From the IMG/VR virus record IMGVR_UViG_3300044756_000020, positions 1 to 39,196 of that record: a stretch of 39,196 nt of DNA; one strand, written 5' to 3'. Position numbers and translations under genes: made by a program. This document shows positions 3,310 to 9,744 of this stretch, one piece after another (positions within the stretch are counted from its first letter, which is position 1; the number at the start of each line of letters is the position of its first letter). Source of the stretch: a virus. The notes beneath the pieces were generated by a model. The model made no database searches. It was not told the DNA's origin and saw only the letters and a list, made by a program, of their open reading frames with translations.

Positions 3310-4422
3310 ATGTCAGACAGTCTAACTACCGGAACCCCAGGAACCCCGGCTGACGGCGGCTCTGTCAGCCCCCCGGCGAACGACGCGCCGGCGATCACCA
3401 TCTCGGATGCCGCCCGTCTTCTCTCACGCCAGCGCAGGTCAGCCCCGGCGCAAGGCGGCGATGGAGCGAGCGGTGTGGAGGCGGCCGGCGGTGCCGTGGT
3501 GGACCCCGCCGGCCGCAAACCCTCGCCTAACGAGGCGGCGGCGGCCAAGGCGGCGCTAGCAGCCACCCCGGCACCAGCGGCCACGCCTCCAGCCGATACC
3601 GGCCTGTCCGCGATGGAGAAGGCCCTCGGCGTCCCGGCCGAAACGTCGGCGACCCCAGCCGCTCCCGCGGTCGACAACGCCACCCCGCTCCCGGCGCCGA
3701 TCGTCATCGAGGGCCGGCAGCTCAGGACGATCGGCGACATCCAAAAATTCGCCCAGGACAAATCAGCCGACTACACAACGAAATCGCAGGAACTGGCCGA
3801 GGGCCGCAAGCATCTGGAAGGCCAGATGGCCGCCTTCGCCCAGGTGCTGCCACTCATCCAACCCGAGCTGGCCCGCCTCGCCCAGATCGTCCAGGAGGCC
3901 CCGCCACGTCCAGATCCGGCCCTGCTCGAGGCCGACCCCAACCGCTACCACCGGGAGCGCGCCGCCTGGGAGGCGCACCAGGAGGAAGCGCAACGCCTCG
4001 GCTCCCTCACCCAGGTGCAGCAGCAGGCCCAGGCCAGGGCGATGGAACAGGCCGTCGCGTCGGCGAATGAGATCCTCGCCAAGGAACTCCCTTTCTGGGC
4101 GGACCCGGCCCAACGCCTCGAGGCTCAGCAGCAGATCGTGAGCTGGGCCCTTGATAAGGGCGGTTTCAGCCGCGACGAGCTGCGTGGCCTGACGTCGGCC
4201 CATCATCTCAAGACGATGATGAAAGCGGCCCTGTGGGATAAATTCGCCGCCGGGGCCAAAACCACGGCGCCACAACAGGCCGCCGCGCCGGTGCGTGGCA
4301 CGGCCCCACCGCCGGCACTGAGCGAGCGGATCACCCAGGCCACCGAGAGCTTCCAGCAGAAGGCTGACGTCCGTAGCGCCACCGCTCTGCTGGCCGCTCG
4401 CCGCGCCGCCGCCAGCGGCTAG
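3310..4422 (+). CDS. capsid scaffold-like protein
   Basis: A 370-aa protein just before the major capsid gene. It directs procapsid assembly and is expected to leave or be removed before maturation. Residues 1-130 are Ala/Pro/Gly-rich and probably disordered. The remaining two thirds are helical and rich in Gln, Glu and Ala with coiled-coil character (for example QKFAQDKSADYTTKSQELAEG and the stretch after DPNRYHRERAAWEAHQEEAQ), as in podovirus scaffolds. The length agrees with the P22/T7/SU10 scaffold class. The start is ATG 3310, immediately after a hairpin. The stop shares a CTAG palindrome with the convergent small gene at 4419-4622. The call depends on composition and gene order, since scaffolds diverge strongly. 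Confidence 0.8.
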   Translation: MSDSLTTGTPGTPADGGSVSPPANDAPAITISDAARLLSRQRRSAPAQGGDGASGVEAAGGAVVDPAGRKPSPNEAAAAKAALAATPAPAATPPADTGLSAMEKALGVPAETSATPAAPAVDNATPLPAPIVIEGRQLRTIGDIQKFAQDKSADYTTKSQELAEGRKHLEGQMAAFAQVLPLIQPELARLAQIVQEAPPRPDPALLEADPNRYHRERAAWEAHQEEAQRLGSLTQVQQQAQARAMEQAVASANEILAKELPFWADPAQRLEAQQQIVSWALDKGGFSRDELRGLTSAHHLKTMMKAALWDKFAAGAKTTAPQQAAAPVRGTAPPPALSERITQATESFQQKADVRSATALLAARRAAASG

Positions 4423-6467: not shown

Positions 6468-7133
6468 GTGGCGACCTACCAGCAGCTACAGGATGATGTC
6501 GCCGGCTGGCTGAACCGCAGGGACATCGGCAGCCGCGTTCCCGGCTGGGTCGCGATGGTCGAGACGGAGATCGCCGAGACGTTGCGTGCGAGGTGCATGA
6601 TCACCTCCGGCACGCAGCCGATCGACGCGGCCTATATCAGCCTGCCGTCTGACTTCGCCACGATGGCGTCCATTCGTGACGCCACCAGTGGGGAGCTGCT
6701 GGAACTCAAGGACGCATGGTCTGGACACTGGTCTGGGCAGCAGGCGAACGCCTGGGTCGATGGCGCCGTCGTCGGCGGCAATGGCGGCCCCTGCTCGGCC
6801 TACAGGCTGATGGGGGATTGTATCGAGTTCCTTCCCCATCCGGTCATCCCAGACCCGCCAGACCCGGCCTGGGCGCCTCAGAGCGTGATCATGGAGTGGT
6901 ATGCGAAGCCGAAGCCGCTGCTGCTGCCGTCCGATACGAACCCGATCCTCGAGCAGCTCTACGCGGTTTACCTGTGGGGCGTGCTGAAGCAGGGCGCCAT
7001 GTTCGAACTCGATGACGACAGGGCCGCGCAGGCGGACGCCCAGTTCCAGCAGGTCGTGACCAGGGCCAACTTGTGGAAGCAGCAGGCGGACTTTTCCGGC
7101 GCGCCGTTACGCGCTGAACTGGTATCGTTCTGA
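6468..7133 (+). CDS. head-tail adaptor protein
   Basis: A 221-aa helical protein that by order and pattern corresponds to the podovirus adaptor (T7 gp11, P22 gp4 or SU10-type), the ring binding below the portal. The N-terminus MATYQQLQDDVAGWLNRRDI, the central aromatic region ending in IMEWYAKPKPLLL, and the C-terminal helices around EQLYAVYLWGVLKQGAMFEL are typical. It starts with GTG 6468, three bases after the previous stop. Its stop overlaps the next start, TGATG-like at 7133. The family call is from pattern, not from a profile search. Confidence 0.75.
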   Translation: MATYQQLQDDVAGWLNRRDIGSRVPGWVAMVETEIAETLRARCMITSGTQPIDAAYISLPSDFATMASIRDATSGELLELKDAWSGHWSGQQANAWVDGAVVGGNGGPCSAYRLMGDCIEFLPHPVIPDPPDPAWAPQSVIMEWYAKPKPLLLPSDTNPILEQLYAVYLWGVLKQGAMFELDDDRAAQADAQFQQVVTRANLWKQQADFSGAPLRAELVSF

Positions 7134-8290
7134 TGTCCTTCATCGTTCACCGCGTCGCCAAACACGCCGCGCGCTACACCGACGCGGGCGGGCGGGAAAA
7201 GTGTGGCATGTGCCGCTTCATGACCGGGCCACGCTTCTGCGGGAAGGTCATCGGCCCCGTCTCACCGATGGGCTGGTGCAAGTATTTCAGCCGCCAGATG
7301 GTCAGCCAGTTCGGCGGCTCCATCGTCACCAGCGGCATTCCCGCCGGTGCCACGCTGGCGCTCGATTTCATGTCATCGGGCAACATGCCCCCCGGCATCA
7401 CATTCACGCGCGCATCGACCGCGACCTACATCGACGCCGCCGGAACGATGCAGACGGCGGCGGTCAACGCACCGCGCTGGGATTACGCGGGTGGATCGTT
7501 ACGCGGCCTGCTGATCGAGGAAGCACGGACGAACCTGCTGCTGAACAGCGCGACGCTCGGCACGCAGTCGGTCGCCGTCACGGCGCAGGCTTACACGCTG
7601 TCGTTTTATGGCGCCGGCACGGTCACGAAGTCAGGCGCGGCGACGGGCGCGCTGGTGGGAACGGGCGCGGGTCAGCGCGTCACGCAGCCGTTCACACCGA
7701 CAGCCGGGACGCTGACCTGCACGGTCGCGGGATCGGTGACGAACGCGCAGATCGAGGCCGGCGGGTGGGCGTCGTCGTGGATATCGACAGCGGGCGCGGC
7801 GGCGACGCGGGCGCAGGATTTGTGCTCCATTTCTTCCGCCAACATGGCGCCCTGGTTCAACGCGACGGGAACATGGCTCGCCGAGTTCATTTTGGTCGAC
7901 CCCGCGCCGGCGAGTGACCGTATCATCGGCGCTCCCGTCACGGCGGATGGCGGCGCGGGGCCTCTGCTGATCGGGAGCGGCCCCTACACGCTGGGGCAGT
8001 GGGACGGGTCCAGCTTCTTCGCGACAACCAACACGGTCTCCGTGAATGTGCCGCAAAAGGCCGCCAACGCATCCGCCGGCGCGCTGGGGACCGCCAAACT
8101 CTGCCTGAACGGCGGGCCGGTCGCGTCGTTCCTGGTAAACAACGGCTTCGCATCGCTGGCGACAAGCGGCGTGCGGTTTCTCAACACGGTGGCGGGCGTG
8201 TCCGCCGATAACGGCAACGGCTACATCCGCCGCGTTCAGTTCTGGCCGCGCGTGCTGACCGATACCGAGATGCAGCAGGTGACGACATGA
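7133..8290 (+). CDS. tail fibre/receptor-binding protein with N-terminal HiPIP-like Cys motif
   Basis: A 385-aa protein in two parts. Residues 20-52 carry four Cys (C24, C27, C36, C49) arranged as in high-potential iron-sulfur proteins; C36-x6-V43-x3-G47-W48-C49-x2-F52 fits the published HiPIP signature as I remember it. From about residue 70 the protein turns into a beta-rich, Gly/Thr/Ala-rich lectin-like module starting TFTRASTATYIDAAGTMQTA and containing LRGLLIEEARTNLLL, a module common in phage tail fibres. Small stand-alone CxxC...C...GWC proteins occur at this place in other podoviruses, so this looks like a fusion of that protein with a fibre. A 4Fe-4S cluster in the virion is inference; the Cys could also bind zinc. 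The stop overlaps the next start (ATGA at 8287). Confidence 0.7.
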   Translation: MSFIVHRVAKHAARYTDAGGREKCGMCRFMTGPRFCGKVIGPVSPMGWCKYFSRQMVSQFGGSIVTSGIPAGATLALDFMSSGNMPPGITFTRASTATYIDAAGTMQTAAVNAPRWDYAGGSLRGLLIEEARTNLLLNSATLGTQSVAVTAQAYTLSFYGAGTVTKSGAATGALVGTGAGQRVTQPFTPTAGTLTCTVAGSVTNAQIEAGGWASSWISTAGAAATRAQDLCSISSANMAPWFNATGTWLAEFILVDPAPASDRIIGAPVTADGGAGPLLIGSGPYTLGQWDGSSFFATTNTVSVNVPQKAANASAGALGTAKLCLNGGPVASFLVNNGFASLATSGVRFLNTVAGVSADNGNGYIRRVQFWPRVLTDTEMQQVTT

Positions 8291-9744
8291 CCGGTTACCC
8301 GTGGGCGGTTGGTGACGCATTGCTCGCCGCCGATCTGAACGCGGCCCTGTCCAAAGCGGGCAGCGGCGTTAACGTCCTCGATCACGGTGCCGACCCGACC
8401 GGTGTCGCGGACAGCAGCGCGGCGATCAACGCGGCGGCGGCCGTGGTGGCGCCAAACGGGCGGCGCAAATCGGTCTATCTGCCCGCCGGGACGTATCGCG
8501 TGAACCACCAGATCACGCTGACACAATCCCAGGGACTTATCGGCGATACGCGCGGCTCGTCCATCCTTTACGTCGATGACCAGTTCGATCCGGCGGCGTC
8601 GTCGGTGATATTGTGCCGCGCGGCGTTCCGGGACGCGGGGCCGGTGATCCGCGATCTTGGTATCAGCTTCGCGCAGCCATCCGATCAGAGTTCGCGCGCT
8701 AACTTCAAAACACTCGCCGCTGGCGGAACCAGTGGAACAGGTGGAACCGGCGTCAGGTATCCGTGGGCTATCGCGGCGGGTGATAATTCGTTCCGAACAC
8801 AAATCATGCGGGTGCGGATTGGCGGCGCCTGGGACGGCATCACCAGCAATGGGTACAACGCGGTGTTCTGGCTTGAAGATATCGAGATGGGCGCGCTGGA
8901 CTGTGGTGTTTCACTTGGCGAGGGCGCGAGCGGCGGCGTCATGGATTTCTGCCACATCAGTGGCTACCACTTCTGGAATTTCGACCTGAACGCCGCTGGT
9001 ATTTCCACCGTATTTTATGATGGGCAAACGACATCGCTCCGTGTCGGGCGATGCGATGGCCTGGACATCAGGGACTTTTCCTCTTTCGTTGGTCGTCTGA
9101 TCGTCACCCCGGACAGCGTCGGATTCACCTCGATCCATGTCGTTAATTGCATGATGGACGGGGATCAGGCGACCATCGAAATAAACGGCATAATGCTACA
9201 CATGAATATCAGCAATTTATACGGCACGGCGAGCGCGGCGAGGCCGCGCCCGTTTATTTCCGTTAACGCGAAGTGTCCTCTGAACATAAATAATTATTAC
9301 TCTCATTCCTCCTCTCCGTTTCCAGAACTGCTCCTTAATGACTTCGACGCCAATGTGACGTTCAGGGGGTTCTATTCGATATACTATCCGAACGGAACCG
9401 CGTGGGCCTCGGTGCAGCGAGGGTTTTTGACCATGACGGACGGGCAATTGGTTTTGCAGGGGCCTCGGACGGTCGCGGCGGTGGATGCGACCGTGAATGG
9501 AAGCCTGGTTGTCGATAACATCACGGTGAACGCCACGGCCACCGCGTCGGGTCCGTTGGTCAATGTCGCGTCAACCGGGCCGTTCAACAGCATTGGCCGT
9601 ATCGGGCTGCAAACCGGGCAAACATGGACGATGGCTGTCCCGGCGGGGGCCAGTTATGCCAATGACGCGGCGGCGGCGGCCGGCGGCGTGGCGATCGGCC
9701 AACGCTACCGCAACGGCTCGGCTGTCATGGTCCGTGTGGCATGA
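8287..9744 (+). CDS. tailspike with pectate-lyase-like beta-helix
   Basis: A 485-aa receptor-binding protein. The N-terminal region has VNVLDHGADPTGVADSSAAI followed by the GRRKSVYLPAGTYRV block, the signature of the pectate_lyase_3 beta-helix superfamily used by phage tailspikes to bind or cleave surface polysaccharides. The middle has irregular repeats rich in Asn, Ile and Gly as expected for a solenoid, and the C-terminus ends in a small Ala/Gly domain. Bases about 9180-9340 are clearly more AT-rich than the surroundings, a sign of exchange in the receptor-binding part. It begins by ATGA overlap with the previous fibre gene and ends overlapping the 27-aa gene at 9741. Catalytic residues were not identified. 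Confidence 0.8.
   Translation: MTGYPWAVGDALLAADLNAALSKAGSGVNVLDHGADPTGVADSSAAINAAAAVVAPNGRRKSVYLPAGTYRVNHQITLTQSQGLIGDTRGSSILYVDDQFDPAASSVILCRAAFRDAGPVIRDLGISFAQPSDQSSRANFKTLAAGGTSGTGGTGVRYPWAIAAGDNSFRTQIMRVRIGGAWDGITSNGYNAVFWLEDIEMGALDCGVSLGEGASGGVMDFCHISGYHFWNFDLNAAGISTVFYDGQTTSLRVGRCDGLDIRDFSSFVGRLIVTPDSVGFTSIHVVNCMMDGDQATIEINGIMLHMNISNLYGTASAARPRPFISVNAKCPLNINNYYSHSSSPFPELLLNDFDANVTFRGFYSIYYPNGTAWASVQRGFLTMTDGQLVLQGPRTVAAVDATVNGSLVVDNITVNATATASGPLVNVASTGPFNSIGRIGLQTGQTWTMAVPAGASYANDAAAAAGGVAIGQRYRNGSAVMVRVA

Follow-up and report, generated by a model that had tools for sequence, protein, structure and literature searches.

The window analysed here, a linear virus record of 39,196 nt, carries a SU10-type capsid protein together with portal, terminase and DNA-ejection genes, and its predicted gene set is as expected of a short-tailed phage; no tRNAs were found in the window. 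Between the gene of the SU10-type adaptor and that of a putative tail spike lies a reading frame of 385 codons, whose product joins a short N-terminal module resembling the high-potential iron-sulfur proteins (HiPIPs) to a fibre-type C-terminus. The genes and features concerned are the following:

6468 to 7133, + strand: gene of the SU10-type adaptor (head-tail connector), immediately before the fusion gene (Pfam SU10_adaptor, 1.7e-19)
7133 to 8290, + strand: HiPIP-fibre fusion gene, 385 aa, overlapping the adaptor stop with its ATG and the start codon of the spike gene (ATG) with its stop
about 7154 to 7291, + strand: HiPIP-type domain, residues ~8-53
7202 to 7204, + strand: Cys24 codon (TGT), predicted cluster ligand 1, aligning with PioC Cys22
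7211 to 7213, + strand: Cys27 codon, predicted cluster ligand 2, aligning with PioC Cys25
7238 to 7240, + strand: Cys36 codon, predicted cluster ligand 3, aligning with PioC Cys34
7277 to 7279, + strand: Cys49 codon (TGC) in G-W-C-x2-F, predicted cluster ligand 4, aligning with PioC Cys47
7346 to 8287, + strand: C-terminal fibre part, residues 72-385, all-beta, with phrog_5939 similarity and a concanavalin-A/LamG/CBM40-like fold
8287 to 9744, + strand: pectate-lyase-like/tail-spike protein, the gene after the fusion gene

The product of window positions 9563-10285 matches the phrog_240 head protein, and a protein of similar appearance is encoded directly after the adaptor in relatives that have no HiPIP fibre (e.g. 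L191).

Members of the HiPIP family hold a [4Fe-4S] cluster with a positive potential of +50 to +500 mV. The N-terminus of the fusion protein shows the spacing C24-x2-C27-x8-C36-x12-C49 before it passes into the beta-rich, lectin-like fibre protein, and the HiPIP pattern C-x(6,9)-[LIVM]-x(3)-G-[YW]-C-x(2)-[FYW] is matched by C36-x6-V43-x3-G47-W48-C49-x2-F52. A six-frame search of the window finds the core pattern a single time, and 100 shuffles of the window do not contain it at all; together with the strong homology described below, this rules out a chance match of a short pattern. Tyr15, Ser44, Gly47, Trp48 and all Cys are invariant across 44 aligned phage and cellular rows, and Tyr51/Phe52 are the aromatic residues following the last Cys; a Trp before and aromatic residues after the last Cys are conserved in HiPIPs (PMC7462912). 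The preliminary description had listed the four Cys and the surrounding C-x6-V-x3-G-W-C-x2-F exactly as they stand, but the span 7189-7290 that it gave for the module is too short, since the domain comprises residues ~8-53; the first ~12 domain residues, the invariant Tyr15 among them, were omitted.

The proposed relationship to HiPIPs was borne out by homology, the statistics of which go far beyond those of the pattern. A phmmer search of PDB with the single sequence matched PioC, a proven HiPIP of R. palustris, at E=6.2e-6 over residues 12-53, and a profile of the phage domain (first 14 rows) matched PioC at E=6.2e-11 and the HiPIP 3h31 at 2.6e-4, the following matches having E values of at least 0.22. 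Profile-profile comparison of the phage domains with 26 cellular domains (Tat-exported HiPIPs) gave 99.6% probability (E 5.7e-24). An HMM search against the HiPIP family, as suggested in the preliminary description, gave a divided result: the model of the Iro-type HiPIPs (NCBIfam NF041615) was matched by 14 of 14 members of the phage family (best 1.2e-8), the window protein reaching 27.1 bits over residues 8-53 against a curated equivalog cut-off of 100, but with Pfam HIPIP (PF01355) the window protein, at 11.9-13.7 bits, stayed under the gathering score of 22. The latter score does not discriminate, because the proven HiPIP PioC (15.0 bits) is sub-threshold too. The domain is under purifying selection (median pairwise dN/dS 0.27), and the experimentally assigned cluster ligands of PioC are Cys22, Cys25, Cys34 and Cys47 (PMC7462912). 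Judged by its sequence, the N-terminal module is a HiPIP homologue.

The four Cys might instead form a structural knuckle for zinc or another metal, the HiPIP likeness then reflecting ancestry only, since four-Cys sites can be re-purposed and the AlphaFold model of the domain is of low confidence: modelled by AlphaFold2 without templates it has a mean pLDDT of 62, and within the full-length model the domain stays below 50. However, the only two PDB fold matches of this low-confidence model (pLDDT 62) are PioC and the R. marinus HiPIP, that is, HiPIPs and not zinc knuckles, the match to PioC having a Foldseek probability of 0.99, TM values of 0.60/0.68 and an E value of 0.08. Moreover, what has been retained goes beyond the ligands alone, including the spacing of the HiPIP pocket, the GWC and the aromatics, with Tyr15, Gly47 and Trp48 invariant. 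We therefore regard a zinc knuckle as quite improbable; in the structural check foreseen in the preliminary description, a model of low confidence pointed to HiPIPs as the nearest folds.

The remainder of the protein is of tail-fibre type, with a predicted glycan-binding fold. Residues 74-187 match the phrog_5939 tail protein (1e-40, PHROGs), residues 255-379 match Laminin_G_3 (Pfam) weakly, and the full-length structure model is confident from residue 68 onward. Compared with PDB, the full model resembles the sialidase CBM40 and other concanavalin-A-like folds (1e-5); compared with BFVD, it resembles phage tail fibres and lectin-like proteins, down to 8e-17. In some relatives (~830-900 aa) the fibre module is present twice in tandem. 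In phages without a SU10-type adaptor visible in the upstream flank, the C-terminal module bears other N-termini. Among the relatives of the fibre C-terminus, those at L205, L208, L221, L223, L229 and L232 begin with N-termini resembling Tat/Sec signal peptides (e.g. MVIARRSLLLAGVALPAVARAQC); Pfam and NCBIfam lend these little or no support (best E 0.07-0.4), and such a start would be odd for a virion fibre.

The fusion itself recurs. In three scans of viral contigs, nearly all related domains were continuous with a fibre-type C-terminus in a single open frame, and 80 loci, corresponding to about 51 distinct combinations of adaptor and domain, have the fusion after the adaptor, nearly always immediately, the first Cys codon being mostly 71-107 bases beyond the adaptor end. 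An assembly or frameshift artefact was ruled out, since about 51 distinct loci share the fusion. The view of the preliminary description that the module is the N-terminal part of a fibre-type protein is supported. At some loci an extra small ORF lies between the adaptor and HiPIP-fibre genes and leaves both intact (L004:5485-5832, L017:5483-6001, L052:5452-5946); it carries a motif of the type FEEWW..W..SGKW..RG and has the appearance of a homing or HNH-type gene. Loss of one or more Cys in homologues had been named as evidence against the iron-sulfur assignment. Loci were retrieved with the adaptor or the C-terminal part as query and then searched with Cys-masked queries, so that Cys was not selected for; all 37 domain-bearing loci recovered in this way, without the domain as query, have the four Cys. 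Three weaker matches (E 0.2-0.39) are due to chance.

For about 16 distinct adaptor relatives the available downstream sequence shows no HiPIP fusion, several of these contigs being short, and presence or absence of the module changes only a few times on the adaptor tree; on this tree L009 is labelled 'no', yet it has a HiPIP fusion further downstream. The module is thus stable but dispensable or replaceable. No cultured phage with a HiPIP-fibre fusion was found among deposited phage genomes, which yielded a single relative, a stand-alone protein of 67 residues in cyanophage S-SRM01 that is annotated as hypothetical. Stand-alone phage homologues, for which the preliminary description had proposed a survey at the same place in other podoviruses, do exist (S-SRM01, L115), but none was seen at the position of the fusion gene.

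Such stand-alone proteins raise the question whether the fusion product belongs to the virion at all or is an auxiliary product, namely a phage-encoded electron carrier or a surface lectin made during infection, and the signal-peptide-like N-termini on related C-terminal modules elsewhere would agree with the latter. Against it, the fusion gene lies within the structural operon and overlaps both adaptor and spike genes, its product has no export signal, and its C-terminus is of tail-fibre type, all of which makes a non-virion role very unlikely.

The S-SRM01 protein is encoded at L066:4977-5177 (MW015081.1 47292-47495) and starts with MKSFQEFLFEE. In the S-SRM01 genome a DNA pattern for MK[ST][FY]x[EQ]F has 8 matches on the forward strand and 0 on the reverse, with 0 in the control, and the genes examined are annotated as hypothetical. 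This start resembles the capsid-targeting sequence of T4; if it is one, the S-SRM01 HiPIP would sit inside the head. Other settings of HiPIP-like domains are a stand-alone 60 aa protein (L115, 3995-4174), a 150 aa protein on contigs of 14-330 kb (L116-L118, ~3941-4390) and a protein of >2000 aa that also has helicase-like sequence (L018, frame from 802). A match in Vibrio phage 1.247 was discarded as chance, having no HiPIP motif.

What the module does on the fibre is suggested by how the two parts of the protein have diverged. Across 35 fusions, distances between HiPIP domains correlate with those between adaptors (Mantel r=0.62, p=0.001), whereas distances between C-termini do not (r=0.003, p=0.47), the mean distance being 0.62 for the C-terminus vs 0.31 for the adaptor. 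A backbone-specific N-terminus combined with an exchangeable receptor-binding part is the usual pattern of fibres. Since divergence of the HiPIP domain follows that of the adaptor and the C-terminus is exchanged freely, an N-terminal virion-anchoring module fits best, although part of the correlation between adaptor and HiPIP domain may come from mere adjacency (genetic linkage). The suggestion of the preliminary description that the module could anchor the fibre is hence supported indirectly, by the link to the SU10-type adaptor, co-divergence and C-terminal swapping, while the attachment and anchoring role themselves, like cluster occupancy, incorporation into and location in the virion, and any redox role, are what we infer.

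We consider it fairly likely that a minimal PioC-like HiPIP without export signal serves as the cluster-stabilised N-terminal anchor of a podovirus glycan-binding fibre. HiPIP clusters are generally oxygen-tolerant, so that a HiPIP suits a particle exposed to air. In the proposed mechanism, Cys24/27/36/49 would receive a [4Fe-4S] cluster from the host Fe-S machinery in the cytoplasm of the infected cell, and the cluster would drive folding of the HiPIP module, which in turn would tether the fibre to the virion at its neck/adaptor region. The C-terminal concanavalin-A-like modules would bind host surface glycans and be exchanged between phages. Cytoplasmic assembly before export has been described for HiPIPs (PMC7462912).

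The same ancestry allows a redox-active module, which would exchange electrons at adsorption or entry and either sense the redox state or dock on periplasmic or outer-membrane partners of the host, such as cytochromes or the reaction centre. HiPIPs are electron carriers, PioC shuttling between PioA and the reaction centre (PMC10304953); in cells the relatives are HiPIPs of the periplasm, chiefly from Alphaproteobacteria, and the aromatics around the last Cys, linked to high potential, have been retained. Ancestry is nevertheless the sole support for this possibility, no partner gene was recognised, and the N-terminal position beside a co-diverging adaptor is more readily explained by an anchor than by an exposed sensor, so that we regard redox activity as unlikely. 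In a bolder form, each fibre would carry an air-stable, redox-active cluster, and at the cell surface electron exchange with a periplasmic or outer-membrane host carrier, or a redox change in the base of the fibre, would trigger or license infection; this we hold to be rather improbable. A prophage search for the host in 385 genomes of one class gave no match.

Elsewhere, HiPIPs are familiar as periplasmic electron carriers of bacterial respiration and photosynthesis. A conserved HiPIP module in a viral adhesion protein, at some fifty loci, is therefore an unexpected place for a redox metallodomain. The PMC literature searched contained no report of HiPIPs in phages or tail fibres; the family is already known, and it is the HiPIP-fibre architecture and its setting that appear to be unreported. 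The role of an iron-sulfur cluster in a virion, as a structural staple or with a redox function, becomes testable via a domain of ~55 residues that can be expressed separately.

Compared with known systems, the phage module comes closest to PioC of Rhodopseudomonas palustris TIE-1 (PDB 6xyv, 7a4l, 7a58), with which it has in common the size of ~50 residues, the spacing C-x2-C-x8-C-x12-C, a Trp preceding and an aromatic residue following the last Cys and, in a model of low confidence, the fold. PioC, however, is a free, exported periplasmic electron carrier, whereas the phage module is fused to a fibre and has no export signal. Likewise Iro (iron oxidase), after which the Iro-type HiPIPs are named, stands alone, and the cellular relatives are single-domain proteins with twin-arginine (RR, Tat) export signals. 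In the phage gene no Tat export signal was found; the first Cys is residue 24, and there is no room for such a signal because the reading frame is closed by a stop five codons ahead of the ATG. With the phage tail fibres of the phrog_5939/concanavalin-A-like kind the protein shares residues 74-187 and the beta-sandwich folds, whereas fibres of the phrog_5939 type examined outside the phage group have other N-termini; a HiPIP on such a fibre after a readable gene other than a SU10-type adaptor was not seen.

An iron-sulfur cluster in a virion, which the preliminary description regarded as unusual, has a precedent in lambda gpL (PMC10721106, PMC10276861). Lambda gpL, RcGTA gp13 and the R4C hub are siphophage tail-tip proteins in which four Cys hold a [4Fe-4S] cluster (PMC10721106, PMC10276861); the cluster of gpL is oxygen-sensitive and its role open (PMC10721106). 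Common to this group and the present protein is a four-Cys Fe-S site in a phage virion protein, the site and the place in the virion being predicted for the fibre. No family of the gpL type was found for the fusion protein in Pfam or PHROGs, and its Cys site is N-terminal and HiPIP-like, whereas that of the gpL type is C-terminal. The gpL group thus represents an unrelated hub of long-tailed phages, while here a HiPIP-type domain makes up the N-terminal end of a fibre in a short-tailed phage. After lambda gpL, to which it is unrelated, this fibre would be the second example of a phage particle that probably contains an Fe-S cluster.
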